From the NCBI GenBank assembly GCA_029237825.1, contig JAQZBQ010000009.1, forward strand, positions 62,001-126,000: a stretch of DNA of 64,000 nucleotides, written 5' to 3'. This DNA comes from Bacteroidota bacterium (lineage in GTDB: Bacteria > Bacteroidota > Bacteroidia > B-17B0 > Aurantibacillaceae). The position numbers and the translations under genes are program-made. Below the pieces are notes generated by a model. That model searched no databases, was not told the origin of the DNA, and worked only from the letters and a program-made list of their open reading frames with translations. Of this stretch, positions 17,066 to 62,459 are shown in pieces (positions within the stretch are counted from its first letter, which is position 1; each line of letters opens with the position of its first letter).

Positions 17066-18199
17066 ATGGAAAACTATCAACTAGCAAAAATTGTGGATCG
17101 CGGCGGCGACTTAACCGCCCGCTGGTTCGTAGAATACAAGTATAAACACCCTGAAACGGGCAAATTTGTTAAGTTTCGGGAGTGGATCAGTGCAAAAATA
17201 ACTACCCGTTCCGGTAGATACCAGAAAGCCACAGCCCTCAAAGCATCCATTAACTTAAAATTAAAAAGTGGTTTTTCACCATTTGAGGCTGTAGAGCGAC
17301 AAAGAACCCTAAAAGACTGTATTACCTCAGTTTTGGAATTAAAAGCCGTTACATGCGGTAAACGTGCCAAAATTACCTACAAAAGTATAGGCGGGTTGTT
17401 CCTTAATTGGATTGAAAAAAACAATCTTTCTACGGTTAAGCCAGAAGAGATTAACAAAGCACTTGCGCAAAGGTTTTTGGATTATCTGTTAATTGACAAG
17501 AAAGTCAGTAACCGAACCTATAATAATTACCTGGTTTGTTTACGAACCATTTTTGAAGTTTTACTGGAACGCGAGGCCATAGATTTTAACGTATGGAAAA
17601 AATTAAAAAAGCTTAAGGTTAAAGAAGCTGATATAACGGCATTTACAGCAGCTGAATGTAAAAGGGTTGCCGAAATAGTACCGGTAGTGAATTACCAGCT
17701 ATATGCGGCTGCAATGCTTATTTACTATTGTTATTTAAGACCGGCAGAAATTGTGCGCCTAAAAATTCAGGATTTGGATTTAGTAAAAGGACAAATATTA
17801 GTGAAAGCCAGCCAAAGTAAAAATGGCTGTAATCAGGTTGTTATCATGCATCAGGAATTAATAAAGATCATTGAAAAAATGAACTTGAACGCATTTCCGT
17901 CGGATTACTATGTGTTTGGCACATCCAAACTTTTAAAGCCGGGACCTCGCGAAATAGCGCCTACCCGTATTGCTGATGCTTGGCGCGAACAATTCAAAAA
18001 ACCATATGGCTTTACAAAGAACATTTACGATCTTAAACCTACCGGTAATGGCGCGGCACTGGATAGCGGCATTGATACTCGCGATATTCAATTGCAAAAC
18101 CGACATCATTCCCTTGACCAAACGCAGCGTTACTTGAATAAGTTTCGAAACAAGCCCGGGAATGTTTTTCGTGAAAAAATGCCGGTATTTAATCAATAA
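17066..18199 (+). CDS. int: tyrosine site-specific integrase
   Basis: 377 residues: an N-terminal arm-binding region, a SAM-like core-binding domain (about 100-190, with NRTYNNYLVCLRTIFEVLL) and a C-terminal catalytic domain. Catalytic residues visible are Arg in YLRPAEIVRL, Lys in ASQSKNG, His in RHHSLDQTQ and the nucleophile Tyr in QRYLNKF. Relatives in Bacteroidota usually read K-H-T-G at the box II position; here it is LKPTGN, so the His is replaced by Pro. It recombines the element with the 3' end of tRNA-fMet. It is read away from the tRNA and is monocistronic or co-transcribed with the PEGA gene. Confidence 0.9.
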   Translation: MENYQLAKIVDRGGDLTARWFVEYKYKHPETGKFVKFREWISAKITTRSGRYQKATALKASINLKLKSGFSPFEAVERQRTLKDCITSVLELKAVTCGKRAKITYKSIGGLFLNWIEKNNLSTVKPEEINKALAQRFLDYLLIDKKVSNRTYNNYLVCLRTIFEVLLEREAIDFNVWKKLKKLKVKEADITAFTAAECKRVAEIVPVVNYQLYAAAMLIYYCYLRPAEIVRLKIQDLDLVKGQILVKASQSKNGCNQVVIMHQELIKIIEKMNLNAFPSDYYVFGTSKLLKPGPREIAPTRIADAWREQFKKPYGFTKNIYDLKPTGNGAALDSGIDTRDIQLQNRHHSLDQTQRYLNKFRNKPGNVFREKMPVFNQ

Positions 18200-38083: not shown

Positions 38084-38098
38084 TCACTCTCCCGCTAC
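38084..38098 (+). repeat. attR core, 15-bp direct repeat
   Basis: TCACTCTCCCGCTAC, identical to 16945-16959. This is the displaced original 3' end of tRNA-fMet. Excision between the two copies would restore one tRNA and release a 21,139-bp circle. Confidence 0.85.
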
Positions 38099-38202: not shown

Positions 38203-39540
38203 TTAGCGAGATTTATCCAGTTTTTCCGAAATGTCATTAATTTTTATCTCTATTTCAGTTTTAAACTCTTGATACAGTTCCAAATCTAAATCATCAAATG
38301 CATATTTACGTTGCAACTTTTTTAAGTCATTTACTAGTCTTTCATGCTCTTTTTCTAACATTGGTTGTTCACTTTGTTTTTCATTCTCCAAGCATTCGTA
38401 GGTCAGTTTTAATTGGTTTAAAAAAGGGGTAAGGTATATTGAAGGTAATTCGTAGCATTTAAGAAAATCAGTGAATATTTGATGAGCACCTATTCCTTTT
38501 GAGCTCTTAGTTGTTTCGGCATTAATTGTTTTGTCCTTGCACTTCTGGCATTTATAGTAGTGTAAATTTTTTTTGTTAACTTCATATCCGGTCATTTTGC
38601 CTCCACATTCATCACAAAGAATAAATCCCATTAAAGGACGATCTGAATTTGATAATTCATTTTTATATCCATATCGATTGGATCTTAATAGATTTTGTAC
38701 ACTGAAAAATTCTTTGTCACTTACTATAGGCTCCCAATTTCCTTTTACTATTTTATCTCCCAATAGCGAGTTCACATTCACCCCGCAGTAAAACGGGTTA
38801 CGCCACATTTTACTCAGTTGTTGTTTGGTGACTTTTAAGCCAATTTTATCTAGATTAATTACTATTAAATTATCAGATACACCTTTTAATTTGTATTCCC
38901 ATGCTTTTCTTACCAATGGTGCATCAGGACTTTTTTCAATTCTTTGAGTGGGACTGTAAAAGCGATGATCCTTTACTCTTGGACCATAATGAACATATCC
39001 TACGGGTGTCCTTCCCAACGCATGACCATTCTCTAACATCTTAACCATACCAGGAATAGTTATCTTTAATCTATCTAAATTATCTCTTCTGGATTGAATC
39101 AGGCCTGTATAGATTTCAAGTTTACCTTCTTCGGTCATCGTATTTTTAGCTGATGATACTTCAATGATATGTACTCCTAGTTTCTCGACAAGCTCATGAG
39201 CTAATGTAATACCTCCGCCACCACTTCGTGAAAATCGTGAAATTGTATTTATGAGTATTGCAAATGGTTTTTTCCTTGCGCTTCGCACCTCATTAATCAA
39301 TTTCATAAACTCTTTTCTAGTGAAGTCACCACTAGCACTCTCATATGTTGACCCGAATGTCATTCCTAAAGTATATCCATTTTCATGCGCATATTTGTGT
39401 GCAGCGTCTTTTTGACTTTCAAGACTTCTGTTTAATTCCTGGTCTTTACTTGAAACTCTAGTGTATAGCCACAAAACTGGATTGAAAACCTCAACCTTTT
39501 TTACTTTCTTCGTAAACGATGCAAATTTATTTAAATTCAT
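38203..39540 (-). CDS. large serine recombinase (resolvase/invertase type)
   Basis: 445 residues. The N-terminal resolvase domain has LYTRVSSKDQ with the catalytic Ser30, and a later NTISRFSRSGGGG segment. Next are the Recombinase domain (GRTPVGYVHYGP, LSKMWRNPFYCGVN) and a zinc ribbon (CDECGGKMTGY, YKCQKCKD), then a coiled coil. It is a site-specific recombinase of a second element directly next to the prophage's attR. Its target sites cannot be located by eye. No transposase partner is visible. Confidence 0.85.
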   Translation of the reverse strand: MNLNKFASFTKKVKKVEVFNPVLWLYTRVSSKDQELNRSLESQKDAAHKYAHENGYTLGMTFGSTYESASGDFTRKEFMKLINEVRSARKKPFAILINTISRFSRSGGGGITLAHELVEKLGVHIIEVSSAKNTMTEEGKLEIYTGLIQSRRDNLDRLKITIPGMVKMLENGHALGRTPVGYVHYGPRVKDHRFYSPTQRIEKSPDAPLVRKAWEYKLKGVSDNLIVINLDKIGLKVTKQQLSKMWRNPFYCGVNVNSLLGDKIVKGNWEPIVSDKEFFSVQNLLRSNRYGYKNELSNSDRPLMGFILCDECGGKMTGYEVNKKNLHYYKCQKCKDKTINAETTKSSKGIGAHQIFTDFLKCYELPSIYLTPFLNQLKLTYECLENEKQSEQPMLEKEHERLVNDLKKLQRKYAFDDLDLELYQEFKTEIEIKINDISEKLDKSR

Positions 39541-48721: not shown

Positions 48722-49315
48722 TTAAAGATTAAAATTAAAATTTTTAAAAGTGTCTGCTTTCCGTTTATTGATATTGTTATTTTGCACTAAGTGTAGGTTG
48801 ACAAGTCGAAAAGACATCGCTAATTCGCTTACATTAAATTTTGATGCTAATTCTTTAAGTCCGTTCGGTTCATCATCTGACAAATCAAGGTTCATATTTT
48901 TAATTTCCTCTACAACAAACTTTTCAGGCATAAGAAGTGCAGCAGCAAAAGCGTTAGCCTGCTGTTCCAGGATATGAGTACCTGTTGAAGAGTTTTCATC
49001 CCTGAACAACGGGGCAAATGCATTATTGTCAACAAATACCTCGTTCGGATCATTAATACTATGTAGCATAAAATGCCCTAATTCATGTGCGATTGTAAAT
49101 CTTTGCCGTACTTTAGATTGGTTAACGTTGAAACCAATTGTTGGTACATTATCGTTAACCATAAATACACCTGATACGCCGTTTTTGTCATCGTCAAATT
49201 CTTTAACAACACATCCTTTATTATTCGCTATTATATGAACTGGCACTGGCCGTGTAGTAATCCCGAACTCTTGAATTAAGTCTTCGGCTACTTTTTCAAT
49301 GTCTTTTCTATTCAT
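48722..49315 (-). CDS. ImmA/IrrE-family metallopeptidase
   Basis: 197 residues. HELGHFMLHS (HExxH zinc site) with a preceding beta region GVFMVNDNVPTIGFNVNQSK and the later EQQANAFAAALLMPEKFV are typical of the ImmA/IrrE (COG2856) family. These proteases cleave and inactivate a partner XRE repressor in response to damage or infection. The XRE gene overlaps its start, so the two are a pair. It may control the adjacent ubiquitin-like operon. Confidence 0.85.
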   Translation of the reverse strand: MNRKDIEKVAEDLIQEFGITTRPVPVHIIANNKGCVVKEFDDDKNGVSGVFMVNDNVPTIGFNVNQSKVRQRFTIAHELGHFMLHSINDPNEVFVDNNAFAPLFRDENSSTGTHILEQQANAFAAALLMPEKFVVEEIKNMNLDLSDDEPNGLKELASKFNVSELAMSFRLVNLHLVQNNNINKRKADTFKNFNFNL

Positions 49316-49649
49316 GTGATTTAGGTTCTAATTGGCTAAAAATACTTTTTAAACTATCAGGTACGACATCGCTTCCGTTTAATTTTACATTTTTTTCCAA
49401 CTCAGATGTTGAAAAACTTGCACCAGGTAAAGGAAAAAGATTTTCCATTGGAACATTTAAGACAGACGCAATCTTCCATATTACATGAACAGGTGGCATT
49501 TGCTTACCTTTTTCAATATTTACAATGGAAACTCGGCTAATCCCAATTTTATCGCCTAAGGCAGCCTGATTGATTCCGTTTATCGATCTCTCACGTTTGA
49601 TCTTTTTACCCACCAATTCATAAAATTGTCGCTTATCCGATTCCTGCAT
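49308..49649 (-). CDS. XRE-family repressor paired with ImmA/IrrE protease
   Basis: 113 residues from the ATG at 49649 (MQESDKRQFYELVGKKIKRE). Residues about 13-70 are an XRE helix-turn-helix (NQAALGDKIGISRVSIVNIE). The tail (PDSLKSIFSQLEPKSHE) could be the protease-sensitive part. The gene is divergent from the UBL-E2-E1 gene with 145 bases between, so it is placed to repress that operon and itself. Confidence 0.8.
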   Translation of the reverse strand: MQESDKRQFYELVGKKIKRERSINGINQAALGDKIGISRVSIVNIEKGKQMPPVHVIWKIASVLNVPMENLFPLPGASFSTSELEKNVKLNGSDVVPDSLKSIFSQLEPKSHE

Positions 49650-49794
49650 TACACAAATGTATAAATATTTGTTGGATATACCAAACATAATGTTGGTTAT
49701 TCTTTACAAAGATATAAAATATATTTAACTTTTGACTTTACATATTTGTAATAATCACTACTTTTGACTCCATAAACTATTAAAATAATATAAA

Positions 49795-51792
49795 ATGAAA
49801 GAAAAAGAAAATGGCCCTGATAAAGAGAAGGGAAACGACAAAAAATTAAATATCTCCGTGATGATTGAAGGAGATAAAATTTTTACCGAAGAGTATAATG
49901 ATAATCAAAAATTAAACGTGATTGTCAACAAAACTTTGGCGAAATTACAAATTACCGCAGATGGTCGCGAATTAAAGAGAGAAGATGGAACTCCACTTCT
50001 TGATTTGAATCTAACCATTGCAGAAGTGGGACTTCGTGATGGTGAAGTACTTCGTTTTTTTAAGAAAGCTGTAAAGCCTGACAGGGACAAAGGATTTGCC
50101 CTGCAGGCTTCCGCAGGCTGGCATAAAGAAAAACCTTTGGAGAACCTATTTAGTACCGAGATCGGGATACTTGAAAGAGGTCTTGGCGGAGATTTTACCC
50201 TTACAAAAATAGTTGATCCTAAAGATAATAGCGGAAGATTAGGTGTCTTAGGAACATTAAAGTTTGCGGAAACCCAATCATCAGAAATCAAAATTATTTT
50301 CCCAACCCGTTATCCATATAGTTGCCCAAAAGTAATTCCTGTGCATGCACCTATGTCAGCACTGGCTTTTCAACAGCTTCCTCCGAAACTTTTTAATAAA
50401 GGCAATCAATATAATGATGGTGCAATGTGTCTTTTACGTGGTGACCAATGGAATCGAAATGAGCATAATATTGGTTGGTGCTTAAGGAGAGCTCAGGAAT
50501 GGCTAACATTTGCTAATAGCCCGGGCGGTTTCCCTAAAGATAAAGTAGTGCTGGAAAACCCAGCGCATCTTCCTCATACCGGTCAGGTAATTTTGCCAAA
50601 AGAATATATACCGCCTGATGCCAAAACTGGCGATTTGATTCTTACACAGTTTAAGCCGAATCATTATATTATGGAAGATAATGTAATTCCCAATCATGTT
50701 TTCACACTTAACCTTGGCAAAGAAACATTCAGATGGTACCGCTTCCCTAGTGGAACAACATTGCAATCAATTATTCCTGCAATTACAGGAAACACCTTTG
50801 TCGATGCGTTTAGAAGTCATTTTGGTATCAATATAGCTGATGGCACTCATAACCAGAATGTAGCACTTTATTTTCCTGATGATTCAAATCGTTGGTATTT
50901 TTTTAAATTACAGATTCAAAAACTAAGTAATAACACCGCTAATTTAAACATCGCATACTATATATCGCGAATTGTAGACAGAGATCTTTACCTACGGACA
51001 CATGATGTTTTCGATGATCAAATACTTAATGCAAAGAAAGTTACAATTATAGGATTAGGTGCTTTGGGTAGTGAAGTAGGCCGTTCGATAGCGCGTAATG
51101 GCGTAGGTACTTTTAATCTCTTTGATAATGATACTTTTGAAATTGGCAACTCTGTGCGTCATGCTGCTGATCTCTTTTATATTGGAGAAAGTAAAACGTC
51201 AGTTGTTAAGCAGCTTATAATACGGTCAAATCCCAATATTTTAGTTAATACTTATAATGTAAATGTTTTGGACGATGAAGGTTTATTGGAATCTTCTTTA
51301 TTTGAATCTGATCTTTGCATTGTTTTAACTGCTGAAGAGCAGGTTGATTATTTAATCAATGAATATTATGCAGCTAGAATTAAAATTCCTTTTGTATTTG
51401 CACGTGTATCGAGTGGTGGTTTATCAGGATCTATACAAATCGTTAATTTTAAAGATTCAGCATGTTTAAATTGTCTGAGACTTCATTCTGCTGATACCTT
51501 ACCACAACCAAAAACAAAAGCAGAATTTAAGGAGCTGCCACCGGAATATGGCAGTTGTTCTACGCCTGCATTCCCGGGTTCGGAAGTCGATACTAAAGAA
51601 ATTGCTTTGCAAGTTAGTAGAATATCTCTGCAACTTTTGCTTGCTAATTCAAAATCGAATTATGCAAAAATACAGGGGCAGCAGTTCTATTGGCATGGTC
51701 CTCATGGTTCCGCAAAACAAAAACCTTTTACTTGGGAAATTAAAAACATTGAAAAACATGGTGAATGTGAAATCTGTAATAACAGGAATTAA
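49795..51792 (+). CDS. UBL-E2-E1 triple-domain fusion protein
   Basis: 665 residues. About 17-91 has a beta-grasp ubiquitin-like pattern (LNVIVNKTLAKLQI, LTIAEVGLRDGEVLRFF). About 105-245 is a prokaryotic E2-like domain with candidate catalytic Cys212 in GAMCLLRGDQW. About 410-620 is a ThiF/E1 domain: GLGALGSE nucleotide loop, LFDNDTFEIGN, Arg in NSVRHA. Zinc-ligand pairs are Cys557/Cys560 and Cys658/Cys661, with Cys588 (YGSCSTPAF) as candidate transfer cysteine. Cap2 of CBASS has E2-E1 without the N-terminal UBL. Together with the next gene (JAB) it would conjugate and remove a ubiquitin-like modifier, probably in antiphage defence. No CD-NTase is near, and a free UBL is not seen. Confidence 0.8.
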   Translation: MKEKENGPDKEKGNDKKLNISVMIEGDKIFTEEYNDNQKLNVIVNKTLAKLQITADGRELKREDGTPLLDLNLTIAEVGLRDGEVLRFFKKAVKPDRDKGFALQASAGWHKEKPLENLFSTEIGILERGLGGDFTLTKIVDPKDNSGRLGVLGTLKFAETQSSEIKIIFPTRYPYSCPKVIPVHAPMSALAFQQLPPKLFNKGNQYNDGAMCLLRGDQWNRNEHNIGWCLRRAQEWLTFANSPGGFPKDKVVLENPAHLPHTGQVILPKEYIPPDAKTGDLILTQFKPNHYIMEDNVIPNHVFTLNLGKETFRWYRFPSGTTLQSIIPAITGNTFVDAFRSHFGINIADGTHNQNVALYFPDDSNRWYFFKLQIQKLSNNTANLNIAYYISRIVDRDLYLRTHDVFDDQILNAKKVTIIGLGALGSEVGRSIARNGVGTFNLFDNDTFEIGNSVRHAADLFYIGESKTSVVKQLIIRSNPNILVNTYNVNVLDDEGLLESSLFESDLCIVLTAEEQVDYLINEYYAARIKIPFVFARVSSGGLSGSIQIVNFKDSACLNCLRLHSADTLPQPKTKAEFKELPPEYGSCSTPAFPGSEVDTKEIALQVSRISLQLLLANSKSNYAKIQGQQFYWHGPHGSAKQKPFTWEIKNIEKHGECEICNNRN

Positions 51793-52237
51793 ATTTAGTG
51801 AGCAAGCCTTAGGCATTTTTGCGTCTGAAATAGAAAAATATGGTCGAATCGAAACCGGCGGTGTTTTAATTGGCAGAATTCAGGATGGCGTAGCAATAAT
51901 TGAAAAGGCTACCAATGGCGGCCCCAATGCTACTCATAAAGAATTTTTCTTTCAGGCTGATCCGAATTATGTCGATATGATAATTGACATGGAATTTGCA
52001 AATTCGGACGGCAAAAACGTGTATTTAGGAGAATGGCATACACACCCTCAAACTCATCCTCAACCCAGCCCGAAAGATCTTCGTTCTTTGGATGAGATTG
52101 CAGATACATCTGAGGAGTTTGCAATTTTACTTATTCTTGGAGCTATTGATTTTAATATTAAGAGGTTACCTAATCAATATTATTCAATTATAAAATATAA
52201 AGAGGAAGAGGATTTCTTTCACCTTATACTTACATAA
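51758..52237 (+). CDS. JAB/JAMM deconjugating metalloprotease
   Basis: 159 residues from the ATG at 51758 (MVNVKSVITGIKFSEQ), overlapping the E1 gene by 35 bases. The JAMM zinc motif is complete: Glu in RIETGGVLIGR, then HTHPQTHPQPSPKD with H-x-H-x10-D. It belongs with Cap3/BilC-type JAB proteins that cut ubiquitin-like conjugates or process the modifier. The overlap shows it is translated with the fusion protein. The upstream part of the longer open frame is not protein-like. Confidence 0.85.
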   Translation: MVNVKSVITGIKFSEQALGIFASEIEKYGRIETGGVLIGRIQDGVAIIEKATNGGPNATHKEFFFQADPNYVDMIIDMEFANSDGKNVYLGEWHTHPQTHPQPSPKDLRSLDEIADTSEEFAILLILGAIDFNIKRLPNQYYSIIKYKEEEDFFHLILT

Positions 52238-54317: not shown

Positions 54318-55349
54318 ATGGAAGATGAAGATTATAAAATATTTTGTGATGAGTCCGGTTACACAGGTGTTGGTTTATTAGAAGAAAAACAACCCTATTT
54401 TGTTTATTCTGGAGTTAGACTATCTGCTGAAACTACAAATGAAATATCACAATACATTAAAGCTAATTATCCTGTACAGAGTGAAATAAAGGGGAAACAT
54501 CTTGTGAAAAACGAGAAAGGCACAAAAGTATTACTACATATATTCGAAAAATATGGCCATTTGGCAAGAATTGTGTTTTTTGATAAAAAATTAGCTCTTG
54601 CGTCTAAGATATTTGAGTATGCTATTGAACCAAATTTGTTGAGTAATGGATTAATATATAAAACAAAGTTCAATATATACATCGCAGATAAGATGTATGA
54701 TTACTTCACAAAGACAAGCACAGAAGCGGAAACAATATTTACGACATTTCTTGAAGAGTTAAGAGGAATAAAGAAAAGAACTATTTTCAGTATTGATCAT
54801 TCAAATATTGAGAATGACGCTGTATCATGGATGTTTGATATTGTAAAATCAAACCCCGACAATTTTTATAAATCAATTTCAAAAGATGATGTAAGATGGC
54901 TGGGTTTTAGACTTAATATCAACCGCACTTTTAGTATATTGACAGATTGGAGCAAAACACATGGAAAGCTTGAAGTTGTTTGCGACGAATCTAACCTTTT
55001 AAAAAATGGAGATATACTTCTGCCCTTAAATAGCATGGGTTTATCTGGTAAAACGGCGGAGTTGTTAGATGATGTGATCGGGTTTGAACTAACAAAAGAA
55101 ATTTCTCTTGCTAAATCAAAAGAAGAACCTGGGTTAGAAATCGCAGACATTTTCGCTTCGACTGTAGGTTATGCTCTTAACAACAAAGCTGATGAATTCA
55201 GTAAAAAGATAATTAAGTATACTTTCGAAAAAACAATCTGCAATCCGTCATTTTGTATCTTTCCTTCTTCTAAGAATACATATTCAAAAGAGCAGATAGA
55301 TTTCTACAAAAGACTAATGAGAATAATTAATGAATATCCAAGAAAATAG
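54318..55349 (+). CDS. DUF3800 domain protein
   Basis: 343 residues. It starts IFCDESGYTG, the hallmark of DUF3800, and has the later acidic segment GLEIADIFASTVGYAL. DUF3800 is thought to have an RNase H-like fold with acidic catalytic residues and is often found in phage-defence and mobile-element settings. Nuclease function is not proven. It forms a pair with the metzincin gene and ends at a terminator. Confidence 0.8.
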   Translation: MEDEDYKIFCDESGYTGVGLLEEKQPYFVYSGVRLSAETTNEISQYIKANYPVQSEIKGKHLVKNEKGTKVLLHIFEKYGHLARIVFFDKKLALASKIFEYAIEPNLLSNGLIYKTKFNIYIADKMYDYFTKTSTEAETIFTTFLEELRGIKKRTIFSIDHSNIENDAVSWMFDIVKSNPDNFYKSISKDDVRWLGFRLNINRTFSILTDWSKTHGKLEVVCDESNLLKNGDILLPLNSMGLSGKTAELLDDVIGFELTKEISLAKSKEEPGLEIADIFASTVGYALNNKADEFSKKIIKYTFEKTICNPSFCIFPSSKNTYSKEQIDFYKRLMRIINEYPRK

Positions 55350-55384
55350 GTTTTATAGATAGTATTTTGTCTATAAAAAACCTT
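55348..55384 (+). terminator. terminator after the DUF3800 gene
   Basis: Stem AGGTTTTATAGA / TCTATAAAAAACCT with a small bulge and a ten-base loop, followed by TTTT. It overlaps the stop codon and separates this operon from the STAND gene. Confidence 0.6.
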
Positions 55385-55460
55385 TTAATAACTTCTAATT
55401 ACAGCAAGTCTGCTCTAGTATTAAATTTGTAATTTTAATCTAACAAGATACTAAATACCT

Positions 55461-58400
55461 TTGTTTCAGGAAATCCAAAATCGTGATGCGTGGAGTACAA
55501 TACGCGGATTTGTGTACCAAGTGGACACAACTATTTTACGTTGGATTCAACTTTCCGAGAATGAGATTTTAGAGCTTGAAAAGGGTGAAGATATTGATAT
55601 AATTACCACAGGTCTTGAGAGCGAAGAAATTTCAAGGCAACTGGAACAAGTAAAATATCGGGAAGACAGTATTTCTTTAAATCAGGAAAGTATTATAGAA
55701 ATACTACTTAATTTTTATATACACTGTAGCTCAAACCCATCAAAAAACATTCTCTTTAGGTTTGTTACTAATACAAATTATGTCACCGAAAGACCTTCTA
55801 TTATCCCTTCAGGCGAAAGTGCAATTGAAACATGGGTCAAATTGGCAAATCAGGAAACTGTAGATGAAAATGATTCCAATTTTCTTTTAATAAAAAAACA
55901 TCTGATCAAAAGAATAGATGGAAATATTGCGAAGCTATCCTCAAAAGAAAATGCAGAAGAAAATCCTGAATTACTAAAGTGGGAAGGATTCAAAGAGTAT
56001 ATTGAGGATAATAAAAAACTTGCTGATTTCATTAAAAAATTTGACTGGAGTTTACAGAATGAAGACCATAAAGAGCTGGGAGATTTAGTAAAGAGTAAAA
56101 TAGCCGAACTAAATATTTCCAGTAATGCTGAATCTACCTCACTCATATATTCTAAGCTCTTTCTTTATGTTTTCAAATCTTTGAGTAACAAAGGGGAAAA
56201 GAGTCTTACCCGGGAGAGTTTTATTACTCAGTCCAAAACAATCATTTCAGAACCAAATGATCTAAAATTAACATCAATCATTTCACAGATAACAGAGAGG
56301 GTTAATTCAATTGAAAGTAAAGTAAATTTACATTCAAGTCAAATAGCTAAATTAGTTAGTGAAGTAGGTTCAATTAAAGATACGGAAGCAGTTTTTAACT
56401 ATAGATTAGATAGCATTTCAGTAAATATCCCAGCTCCTATTAAAAATGGATCATTAAGAAAAGAAAAAGTTGAAACGATAATAGGATTGCTTTCAAAACA
56501 TTCTTGGGTAAATATTCAGGGAATTAATGGAACAGGCAAAACACAACTGACAGCACTTGTTAGCTCTCGATATTCAAAAGTTTGGTGGATAGATCTAAGA
56601 ACCTTTCACAACGAAAAAGATAAAATTGGAATCGTATTGGAAAAATTCTTATCTATTATTTGTGATTGCCCTATTACAAATAATAAAGCTCATTGGTTAT
56701 CTAATGCGTTGAAAAGACTTCCGGGAAATTCCCTTATCATAATCAATGACCTTCCAAAGGTTGAAAAAAACTCTGATCTATTTAATTTGCTGGCATTACT
56801 TGCAACAACAATATCAAATAGTTCAATAAAACTACTTAGCACATCCAACTTCAAAATATCTCCTGATCTATTCCAAAATATAGAGTCTGATCATTTTCTT
56901 GAATACTACGATCTAAATTTTACTGATGAGGAAATAATTGAAATATTAGTTAACCAGGGGGCAGAAAAAACAGTAATAGGCTATGTTAATCTAATTGCGG
57001 TAATTTCTGAACGAAACCCTCAATTAGTTGCAACTATTATTCATTATCTGAAATCAATAAATTGGGGTAAAAATTCAAGCGTTCTTTTTGATGCAATATT
57101 AAAGAAAGAATTTTCATCGGCTGTAATTTCAGATACTCAGTCGTTAATTAAAAATCATATAGCAGATATTGGAACAAAAGAACTATTATACCGCTTAAGC
57201 TTTCTAAATTGGAATTTTAGAATAAATGATGTAAAGATCATAAGCGAAGTCGAAGAAAAAATACAGCATCCTAATGAAAAGTTAGATGGTTTAATAAATA
57301 TATGGATTCAACAAAATAATGATACATATCAAATTTCACCATTAATAAATGGCATTGGAGAAAACAATCTTTCTAAAGACACCATAAAGAAAATTCATCT
57401 TGCAATTGGCAAATCAATCTTAGATGGTAAAGAGTTAGATTATATTAGCGCCTCAAGGGGTATTCTTTCTTTCATAAAAGGTGAAGACTTTAATAGTGCA
57501 GGTTTTATACTTTTAACTGTTTTTCAATCTGTCAAAACACCTGAAGAAGCTAAACAAATAGATAGTTGGGGTTATACCTCCTATTGGGATGAATTAGAAG
57601 GTATCCCAAAACAAATTGAAGTTACGCTCAGATCTTACATCACAGTAGAGCAAATGAAAGTATACAGATTGCTAAAAAAAGATGTTAGTAAAGCGGCAAA
57701 TCGTTTAACACTTTATCCACATGAAGATGGATTAACTGTCTCTCAAAAAGTATTAGCACATTGTTTCAGTGTATCTCACCTTTATATTGAAAACATCAGT
57801 GCTTATTGGGATAGTCTCAGATACATTCTATCAAACTGGAAAAATATTGATAAAATGTTTTATGAAGCATTTTCTCCACAGATGTTTATTGGATTAGTAT
57901 GGTTTCCTATTAGAAAAATTCAAACAAAGGAAGACGTATTGACCTGGATAGAAGTGATTGATCGGATTGAAACCGAATTTTCGATCAACTTATTTGATGA
58001 TAACGTGTATACGAGTTCTATTGCTGTTTTATCAGATGGTATTGTTAATTTGCAAAATCTAAAAGCTGAGAGTGAACGTAATTGGGATGAAGCTATTGAT
58101 ACACTTAAGATTTTAATAGAATATTTCAAAAAGAGAAATCTTGAAACACTTTCAGTAATTCCTTTAAAGGAAATAATCACAATTCATTTTAATGTTTTTT
58201 TAAATCAAAAAAACGCAGAGGAAATAGCAACAAAAGAACTTGCGCTTTGTAGTAATAATGAATCAAAATATCACTTAAATGAATTAATTGGTAAACTTTA
58301 CTCCCGGAGTGGACAAAAAGATAAAGCTGAAAAATACTTAATAAACGCAGTTGAATTAGGTAATGGCAAATATTTATATTATATCGACACACTCATTTAT

Positions 58401-59723
58401 GCAGCCGCAATTAATAGCGACAAAAATGCAGGTAAGGCAGTTGAATATTGTGAACGCGCTTTAGAACTTGCCAAAACAAGCAAAACATATACTGAGCTAG
58501 ACTATATACAAGTGTTAGGAGAATTGTCACTTGCTTATTGGAATAATGATCAAATTTCAGATTGCTATAAAGCTTTTGAAGATTTTGTTGAGAGACTACT
58601 TAGGGTAAAAGAAGAACTATTTGGTCCACATTGGATTAGACTTCATGCTTGGGCTGGTCATGCATATGGATACATAACATCAGCCGCTACAAAAGATAGA
58701 TTACCAACGCACACTTCCGATGGTGTAATTTACACAAAACCCTACGTAGGATTCTTTTCTTTTAACACAAAAGATCTTTCTGATTTGTATAAAGAAGAGA
58801 ATCTTCCCTTTCTTTTAGCAATAACGGCAACTCTTGCAGATGCTGCTGGAGAATCTTCAAAAGCTTACTATTGGACACTTAAAGCATTCGATTTAGCCAG
58901 GAAAAATGGAAATCAGAAAATATTTTTAATGGTATCCGGTCTCTGCGCACAATATTCAGTAATTGATTTTAAAGTAAAGGAAGCGCTTGAATCTTATTTA
59001 TTGTTCTCTGCTGCATCAACACATTTACAGGGAGAATCAGGTAATAGACATCAGGAGCTTGAAACGGTAAAAATTGAAGAATTAATTGCAAAAAAACCAT
59101 CAGAAAAATGGGATGCAGCAGAAGACATAACCATATCCTATGCCATTACACCACTTTTTGTTATCGTACTAAATTCTTTTATGGAAAATAAAGATAATAA
59201 ACTGGAACAAGCACAGGAGCTTTTGGGTTCCATTCGCGACTACTCGTATGAGGCTTCCAACAAATCTTTATGGGAAACAACTTATAATCTCATAGACGCA
59301 ATACTATTTGATAAAATAACTATGTCAGATCTTGTTCAAATGTCAAATAACTTCGCGGCTACCGATAAAAAAAGTCTTCAATTAATAGCAATTCTAGGAC
59401 TAATTAAGCAAAATCAGGAACGTGAAATTTCTTTAATTCAAATTATCAATATTTTCCCATATCTCACAAAGATATATCGTAATTCAAAAGGTATCATTAA
59501 ATTTGCTCTGGCTCCTTATATTAAAAACAGATGTATCGGCATTTTGAAAGAAAACTACATGGGTAATAAGGAAAACTTGAACAATATAATAAGTTATATT
59601 TCCTTACTAGATCTAAATGAAAAAAACATCCTTCAACTGATGATTCAACCTGTCGTCAAAGAGCTTGATAGTGAAATTCCCGAAGACAGAAAACTTTGGC
59701 TTTTTGACTTTAAAGAAATTTAA
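55461..59723 (+). CDS. nuclease-STAND NTPase-TPR protein, Avs-like defence candidate
   Basis: 1420 residues. The N-terminus has the DUF4297/Cap4-like nuclease pattern: RGFVYQ (Q20), GEDIDII (D44) and EQVKYRED (Q63-V-K65), a PD-(D/E)xK-type site. Then comes a STAND NTPase with Walker A GINGTGKTQ (K360) and a Walker B strand NSLIIINDLP. A helical repeat region (TPR-like, e.g. GKAVEYCERALELAKTSK) fills 700-1420 and would sense a viral protein. This order is that of Avs antiphage proteins. The start is a TTG at 55461: an in-frame stop lies 9 bases upstream, and the first ATG is hundreds of residues later. Confidence 0.75.
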   Translation: MFQEIQNRDAWSTIRGFVYQVDTTILRWIQLSENEILELEKGEDIDIITTGLESEEISRQLEQVKYREDSISLNQESIIEILLNFYIHCSSNPSKNILFRFVTNTNYVTERPSIIPSGESAIETWVKLANQETVDENDSNFLLIKKHLIKRIDGNIAKLSSKENAEENPELLKWEGFKEYIEDNKKLADFIKKFDWSLQNEDHKELGDLVKSKIAELNISSNAESTSLIYSKLFLYVFKSLSNKGEKSLTRESFITQSKTIISEPNDLKLTSIISQITERVNSIESKVNLHSSQIAKLVSEVGSIKDTEAVFNYRLDSISVNIPAPIKNGSLRKEKVETIIGLLSKHSWVNIQGINGTGKTQLTALVSSRYSKVWWIDLRTFHNEKDKIGIVLEKFLSIICDCPITNNKAHWLSNALKRLPGNSLIIINDLPKVEKNSDLFNLLALLATTISNSSIKLLSTSNFKISPDLFQNIESDHFLEYYDLNFTDEEIIEILVNQGAEKTVIGYVNLIAVISERNPQLVATIIHYLKSINWGKNSSVLFDAILKKEFSSAVISDTQSLIKNHIADIGTKELLYRLSFLNWNFRINDVKIISEVEEKIQHPNEKLDGLINIWIQQNNDTYQISPLINGIGENNLSKDTIKKIHLAIGKSILDGKELDYISASRGILSFIKGEDFNSAGFILLTVFQSVKTPEEAKQIDSWGYTSYWDELEGIPKQIEVTLRSYITVEQMKVYRLLKKDVSKAANRLTLYPHEDGLTVSQKVLAHCFSVSHLYIENISAYWDSLRYILSNWKNIDKMFYEAFSPQMFIGLVWFPIRKIQTKEDVLTWIEVIDRIETEFSINLFDDNVYTSSIAVLSDGIVNLQNLKAESERNWDEAIDTLKILIEYFKKRNLETLSVIPLKEIITIHFNVFLNQKNAEEIATKELALCSNNESKYHLNELIGKLYSRSGQKDKAEKYLINAVELGNGKYLYYIDTLIYAAAINSDKNAGKAVEYCERALELAKTSKTYTELDYIQVLGELSLAYWNNDQISDCYKAFEDFVERLLRVKEELFGPHWIRLHAWAGHAYGYITSAATKDRLPTHTSDGVIYTKPYVGFFSFNTKDLSDLYKEENLPFLLAITATLADAAGESSKAYYWTLKAFDLARKNGNQKIFLMVSGLCAQYSVIDFKVKEALESYLLFSAASTHLQGESGNRHQELETVKIEELIAKKPSEKWDAAEDITISYAITPLFVIVLNSFMENKDNKLEQAQELLGSIRDYSYEASNKSLWETTYNLIDAILFDKITMSDLVQMSNNFAATDKKSLQLIAILGLIKQNQEREISLIQIINIFPYLTKIYRNSKGIIKFALAPYIKNRCIGILKENYMGNKENLNNIISYISLLDLNEKNILQLMIQPVVKELDSEIPEDRKLWLFDFKEI

Positions 59724-61862: not shown

Positions 61863-62459
61863 TTAGTTAAAATTTCCGTAAGCAACAACTTCAACAATCA
61901 CCTTTAAACCAACCATGGTGTTTAGGTTTTTGATACCAATCCACAAATTTTCCTGAGATATATTACATTCCCCAATGAAAGATCCAATTCCTATTTTGGT
62001 ATATGCTGAAAAAGATTTAAAATTATTATTACCTGTTTCAAGAAAAGACTCCCTATCACCTGAATGGCCTAAAATATAAAAGTCTATGGCTTCAGTCGTA
62101 GGAGAGTAGGTTTCAAAAAACTTATTATTGTTCAGTAAATAATAAAAAGTCTCATTATTTTGATACTTGTATTCTCTTTCTGCGTCGAGCACCGTTACTC
62201 TATAGTACCATTTTTTTGTACCAGCAGGTAAGTTTACTTTTACAACTCCTCTTGTTTTACCACCTGAAATCCTTGCGTTGGAAGATGAGTTTACGATTAA
62301 AGTTTGTGTAGTCACATCTTTAACAATTACCGGATTAGTTCCAGGGCTATTTCCTTCAGACTGTAGAGCAGTTAATATTTGTTTCAAAATTGTTTGTCCT
62401 TCACAAAAATTAGAAAAAGCTGATAAAAGAAAAGTTGCGATAATGATTGTAGTTTTCAT
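61863..62459 (-). CDS. secreted hypothetical protein (198 aa)
   Basis: 198 residues with a signal peptide (ending FCEGQ). The body is a mixed beta protein (LPAGTKKWYYRVTVLDAERE, IGIGSFIGECNISQENLWIG) that I do not recognise. It is upstream of and co-directional with the FadL-like gene, so the two are probably an operon. Confidence 0.6.
   Translation of the reverse strand: MKTTIIIATFLLSAFSNFCEGQTILKQILTALQSEGNSPGTNPVIVKDVTTQTLIVNSSSNARISGGKTRGVVKVNLPAGTKKWYYRVTVLDAEREYKYQNNETFYYLLNNNKFFETYSPTTEAIDFYILGHSGDRESFLETGNNNFKSFSAYTKIGIGSFIGECNISQENLWIGIKNLNTMVGLKVIVEVVAYGNFN

Follow-up and report, generated by a model that had tools for sequence, protein, structure and literature searches.

In the 64,000-nt window of Bacteroidota contig JAQZBQ010000009.1 analyzed here (positions 62,001–126,000 of the forward strand; all coordinates below are positions in this window unless another locus is named), a single forward-strand gene (49795–51792) encodes a 665-amino-acid (aa) protein in which a ubiquitin-like (UBL) domain is fused to an E2-E1 enzyme, and a separate gene for a JAB protease overlaps its end. 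The cassette is well supported as real and as a variant form of ubiquitin-like conjugation in bacteria; its fusion is a single case. We consider it probable that the locus is a self-contained conjugation cassette, in which the UBL modifier is fused as a precursor to a Cap2-like E2-E1, is released by the JAB protease, and stands under a CapH/CapP-like switch. With slightly less confidence, we favor the more specific view that an Ala-ending beta-grasp UBL is carried as an N-terminal precursor on its own E2-E1 and freed by JAB, in an arrangement intermediate between Cap2/Cap3 of CBASS (cyclic-oligonucleotide-based anti-phage signaling systems) and Bil.

A preliminary description made from the sequence alone had proposed a single UBL-E2-E1 chain accompanied by a JAB gene of its own, and this was confirmed by the 665-aa open reading frame (ORF) and by matches to DUF2604, ThiF, and Prok-JAB. 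The PADLOC E1-E2 model also recognizes the protein (E 2.3e-28, strong over the E1 part), which is 53–55% identical to the UBL and E2-E1 gene pairs of three relatives, found in Galbibacter orientalis (L005), an Aliifodinibius metagenome-assembled genome (MAG; L006), and a Bacteroidetes MAG (L007). The UBL domain covers about residues 15–91 (49837–50067, forward strand). DUF2604 (PF10790), a Pfam family itself without assigned function, matches residues 14–92 above its curated cut-off (29 versus 25 bits, E 1.5e-6), as it does in L005 and L007, while the UBL of L006 scores below; YukD matches the same region weakly. The preliminary description had proposed a fold prediction and had named a fold other than beta-grasp as the outcome that would speak against it; in an AlphaFold2 model built from an alignment of the four UBLs, residues 1–108 are predicted to adopt a beta-grasp (beta-beta-alpha-beta-beta), with a core pLDDT (predicted local distance difference test) of about 80–91 and a disordered tail. 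This model aligns to structures of ubiquitin, SUMO, ISG15, and BilA in Foldseek, with VIA Z scores of 12–13.5, and among the solved UBL folds of bacteria BilA is the closest (8tyx; 33% identity, TM 0.77 by target in Foldseek).

Behind the folded part lies a conserved tail, KPDRDKGFA (residues 94–102; 50074–50100, forward strand). In all three relatives the UBL (90–91 aa), the E2-E1 (543–561 aa), and the JAB protein (151–157 aa) are encoded, in this order, by three genes that overlap or nearly touch, and the free UBL ends in this tail (KPDRDKGFA in two, KPDRDKRFA in L007), with the final Ala at its C-terminus; in the window the tail is internal, and the same Ala is the predicted JAB cut point. 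For the relatives, the earlier remark that a free-tailed UBL is not seen therefore does not hold: they encode the orthologous UBL free-standing, with a conserved Ala-ending C-terminus. Invariant residues fill eight of nine columns in the tail versus 30 of the 81 columns of the folded part (hypergeometric p 0.004, on four sequences only), and such conservation of a flexible end would suit the tail of a modifier. It is followed by the fusion linker LQASAG (50101–50118, forward strand), which in the DNA alignment replaces the TAATG stop/start of the relatives (TAACCATG in L006).

The E1 (ThiF/Cap2-like) adenylation domain spans about residues 406–665 (51010–51789, forward strand). ThiF matches residues 409–572 (E 1.2e-22), and hhalign aligns the E1 part, and this part only, with CBASS Cap2 (E 9e-13), with matching cysteines, the terminal ones included. 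Both the predicted catalytic Cys588 (51556–51558, forward strand) and the zinc cysteines 557/560/658/661 (CxxC/CxxC) are invariant in the four copies. The E2-like domain, at about residues 109–252 (50119–50550, forward strand), is the softest of the domain calls: it is proposed from the position, from weak orthologue matches under the cut-offs (in L006, UQ_con E 7.6e-4 and Prok-E2_B 0.0045), and from a D-x-x-x-C-L motif, invariant in 4/4, which holds the predicted catalytic Cys212 (50428–50430). The window protein itself has no Pfam E2 match at E <= 0.1, and Prok-E2_B (PF14461) found no match in its genome, where the positive control likewise remained without match. The JAB/JAMM isopeptidase (Cap3-like, 159 aa; 51758–52237, forward strand) is recognized by Prok-JAB (E 5.6e-12), which occurs once in the genome, and by the PADLOC JAB model (E 3.8e-26), and aligns with Cap3 of CBASS in hhalign; it reaches 59 bits with the NCBIfam Cap3 model, under the cut-off of 200. 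Its JAMM residues (E32, H94, H96, S104, D107) are invariant in 4/4 and, like Cys212 and Cys588, identical in the window and the three relatives. The overlap with the fusion gene noted in the preliminary description stands, although not with a start at 51548: the alignment with the relatives places the start at 51758, and the overlap is thus 35 bp rather than the 245 bp of the longest ORF.

Cap2-type E2-E1 enzymes need substrates with a C-terminal Gly or Ala, and the JAB protease Cap3 cleaves linear fusions after that C-terminal tail (PMC10097602). In a Bacillus cereus CBASS the C-terminal Ala is intact after Cap3 cleavage (PMC11153139), and BilC, the JAB protease of Bil, matures the BilA precursor (PMC11354881). 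Since the UBL of the relatives is free and ends in Ala, since this tail is kept in the window, and given the Gly/Ala rule of Cap2 and the cleavage of fusions by Cap3, the most likely reading is that the UBL is itself the modifier and is synthesized in precursor form. Modifier and ligase genes would thus have been fused, the modifier being produced as a precursor at the N-terminus of its own ligase. By analogy, JAB would cut behind Ala102 (KPDRDKGFA/LQASAG) and so separate a UBL that ends in Ala from the mature E2-E1; the E1 domain would then adenylate the UBL C-terminus and pass it to E1 Cys588 and on to E2 Cys212, from which it may be joined to lysines of target proteins, a bond that JAB would reverse. 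The analysis shows the domains, the conserved catalytic residues, the regulators, and, in the relatives, the separate UBL gene with its tail; cleavage, conjugation, targets, and a role in defense are here what we infer for the cassette.

This precursor reading is supported by the tail, which shows higher conservation than the body of the UBL and survives the fusion, by the invariance of the E1, E2, and JAB catalytic residues, and by the genome, in which neither a SMODS CD-NTase (cGAS/DncV-like nucleotidyltransferase) nor a second UBL of the family was found. Several points weigh against it. The recognition of the E2 stays under the Pfam cut-offs, and the fusion occurs in one of the four copies, a single genome, and may thus have arisen recently and be neutral. 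The tail Gly, third from the end, is Arg in L007, leaving only the final FA strictly kept. A full-length AlphaFold2 model of the 665-aa chain (four-row alignment) had a pLDDT of 42, which does not allow an assessment of whether the junction is within reach of JAB, and was discarded.

The alternative that survives best, which we nonetheless find rather doubtful, is that the chain always stays uncut: the UBL would have become a permanent docking or regulatory domain, the E2-E1 would modify another carrier or substrate, and JAB would only remove the modification. Docking is indeed all that an uncut UBL could do, because adenylation requires a free carboxylate, which it lacks. Some ThiS-ThiF fusions are accompanied by an additional, solo ThiS (PMC1779556, Table 1, row 1), a ubiquitin-ribosomal protein fusion of Giardia has lost its processing (PMC11354881), and only the window copy carries the fusion; against this, the family of the UBL is present once in the genome, the SMODS search gave no CD-NTase, no neighboring gene has a product with a C-terminal Gly or Ala, and the tail has stayed intact although only a free C-terminus would require it. 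The suggestion of the preliminary description that the UBL is merely a docking part, with the modifier elsewhere, has for these reasons (tail kept, no second UBL, no Gly/Ala-ending neighbor) become less likely. Self-tagging in cis seems improbable: the UBL, cut or uncut, would stay with its ligase and mainly be joined to it, as an on/off switch or sensor, which would fit the several cGAS conjugation sites borne by Cap2 in Escherichia coli (PMC10449767) and the 1:1 ratio of UBL to enzyme that a fusion sets, but the separate UBL of the relatives would not need such a ratio. Slightly more improbable still is that the locus is an artefact or defective, through a sequencing error or the decay of an operon that lost its stop codon, for although the fusion comes from a single genome assembled in 33 contigs, a one-base frameshift was ruled out, since no frame between 50061 and 50150 contains an ATG or GTG start codon and an 18-nt linker stands in place of the TAATG-type stop/start lost in all frames, and the catalytic residues of E1, E2, and JAB are all intact.

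The layout lies between type II CBASS and Bil and, judged by its gene content, is neither; it would act as Cap2/Cap3 does, but on a modifier resembling BilA. With type II CBASS (operon type 6b) it shares an E2-E1 fusion whose gene is overlapped by the JAB gene behind it, the C-terminal Gly/Ala rule for substrates, and the CapH/CapP-type regulators known beside such operons; it differs in that its probable substrate is a true beta-grasp UBL and in that no CD-NTase was found and no adjacent cyclic-nucleotide effector seen. No CD-NTase is encoded near the operon and SMODS (PF18144) is absent from the whole genome, with controls that matched, which bears out the preliminary description on this point; CBASS with a CD-NTase elsewhere in the genome was thus ruled out by the whole-genome profile search, for the SMODS family only. 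Among the flanking genes tested, no Pfam or PADLOC match indicated a cyclic-nucleotide effector, and none encodes a metallo-beta-lactamase. Like the cassette in the window, Bil (BilABCD) has a dedicated UBL, E1, E2, and JAB, and the Bil JAB processes a UBL precursor, an activity predicted by analogy for the window JAB, whose motif is intact. Yet E2 and E1 are separate genes in Bil, whereas the window has one UBL-E2-E1 chain and the relatives one E2-E1 gene, so that the difference from both CBASS and Bil claimed earlier has held.

In the survey of Iyer et al. (2006; PMC1779556), type 6a combines E2-E1-JAB with a metallo-beta-lactamase, 6b E2-E1 with JAB and a nucleotidyltransferase, and 6c E2-E1 with JAB and a metal-binding protein, while 6d has a UBL with separate E1, E2, and JAB, and 6e a polyUbl. 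Types 6a (6A-MBL) and 6c resemble the cassette in the window in their multidomain E2-E1 proteins with JAB. In 6A-MBL, however, JAB is fused to the enzyme and accompanied by a metallo-beta-lactamase gene, whereas the window JAB is a separate gene (59 versus 320 bits with NF058523, far under the cut-off); 6c is listed with a metal-binding protein, and neither type with a UBL (PMC1779556, Table 1). A UBL with fused E2-E1 and JAB but without CD-NTase is not in that survey; the Bub, Bil, and first Cap2 literature may describe the layout. Bub operons (Gong 2025; Ye 2026), like the cassette in the window, encode UBL conjugation in bacteria, and CapH/CapP, CapW, or CapK/CapS often control them. A Cap2-like enzyme with a real UBL is the expected counterpart and suggests how CBASS might have exchanged its modifier for a CD-NTase, or the reverse. 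With modifier, E1, and E2 on one chain with a putative natural cut site, the system is compact and testable, and it predicts that a bacterial UBL is conjugated through a C-terminal Ala instead of Gly.

Two other loci touch on this comparison. The type 6c operon of NGR234 contains a putative 81-aa ORF ending in ...KHVG (L011:4183–4428), with a 4-bp overlap with the E2-E1 start, possibly a non-beta-grasp modifier. In another Bacteroidota genome (L015:1210–2688), DUF2604 matches the C-terminal part of a 181-aa protein; behind it are encoded a protein of 158 aa and a JAB-like one of 157 aa, and the three may be a Bil/6d-like operon.

The three relatives were obtained from a scan of 84,980 species genomes with two short peptide patterns, which may have missed others; one of them is the contig already found by the phylum search, where it was the one genome with UBL and E2-E1 as separate genes. 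The preliminary description had called for a search for the same fusion and its neighbors in other genomes: the cassette was found, unfused, in these relatives, and the fused layout was found neither in the other 86 of 87 same-family genomes, nor in the phylum and class samples (395 genomes each), nor in a further 198. As the cassette was not found in those 86 family genomes either, the pattern would be consistent with horizontal spread. A tblastn search of plasmids gave no match to the UBL, while on plasmids the E2-E1 matched other systems (CBASS, rhizobial type 6c) at about 23–30% identity, of use for comparison only; two viral contig scans contained no relatives of the UBL, and two phage records matched solely as MoeB. 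The linker motif LQAS (within 50101–50130) is also present in the E2 of L007, after the WH motif (within L007:8261–8320), which could be a trace of the origin of the fusion, or chance.

Upstream of the fusion gene lies a divergent pair of CapH/CapP type (48722–49688), and the same type of pair is found in L007. The helix-turn-helix (HTH) repressor (49308–49688, reverse strand) is CapH-like (HTH_3 E 1.4e-12; PADLOC capH E 4.7e-6, not its best match), and the ImmA/IrrE metallopeptidase (48722–49315, reverse strand) is CapP-like (Peptidase_M78 E 1.4e-23; PADLOC capP E 1.3e-30; solved CapP 7t5t E 0.0015). An imperfect inverted repeat with 15-nt arms (49704–49751; 87% complementary) in the 106-bp divergent promoter region (49689–49794) is a candidate operator. 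The L005 copy is preceded by a WYL-domain regulator, CapW-like by domain, and the L006 copy by a CapS-like gene with a C-terminal MarR-type winged HTH, which weakly matches a 184-residue winged-HTH chain (PDB 9z71, E 0.26); the partner gene before it has no Pfam matches and by eye looks like a STAS-GHKL kinase, so that the pair may be of CapK/CapS type. CapH/CapP, WYL/CapW, and CapK/CapS types have been described beside immune operons (PMC13373217). Three regulator types beside four copies thus point to stress-induced defense and, as the genes downstream also differ among the four copies, this suggests that UBL, E2-E1, and JAB could be the complete unit of a defense or stress cassette. From this context, it probably serves in defense against phages or DNA damage.

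Downstream of the operon (54318–59723) are genes for a DUF3800 protein and for a 1420-aa protein with TPR-like repeats and a weak match to the anti-phage family DUF4297, possibly a defense island. Further upstream, an element of about 21 kb (16887–38098) is inserted at a tRNA-Met, with a tyrosine integrase (17066–18199) and a 15-bp sequence (TCACTCTCCCGCTAC) directly repeated at the 3' end of the tRNA and at 38084–38098. It encodes a holin, a glucosaminidase, a P-loop ATPase-like ORF, and a VapE-like protein, no tail genes being recognized among the ten proteins scanned, and is a candidate provirus. A serine recombinase gene (38203–39540) lies directly at its right end.
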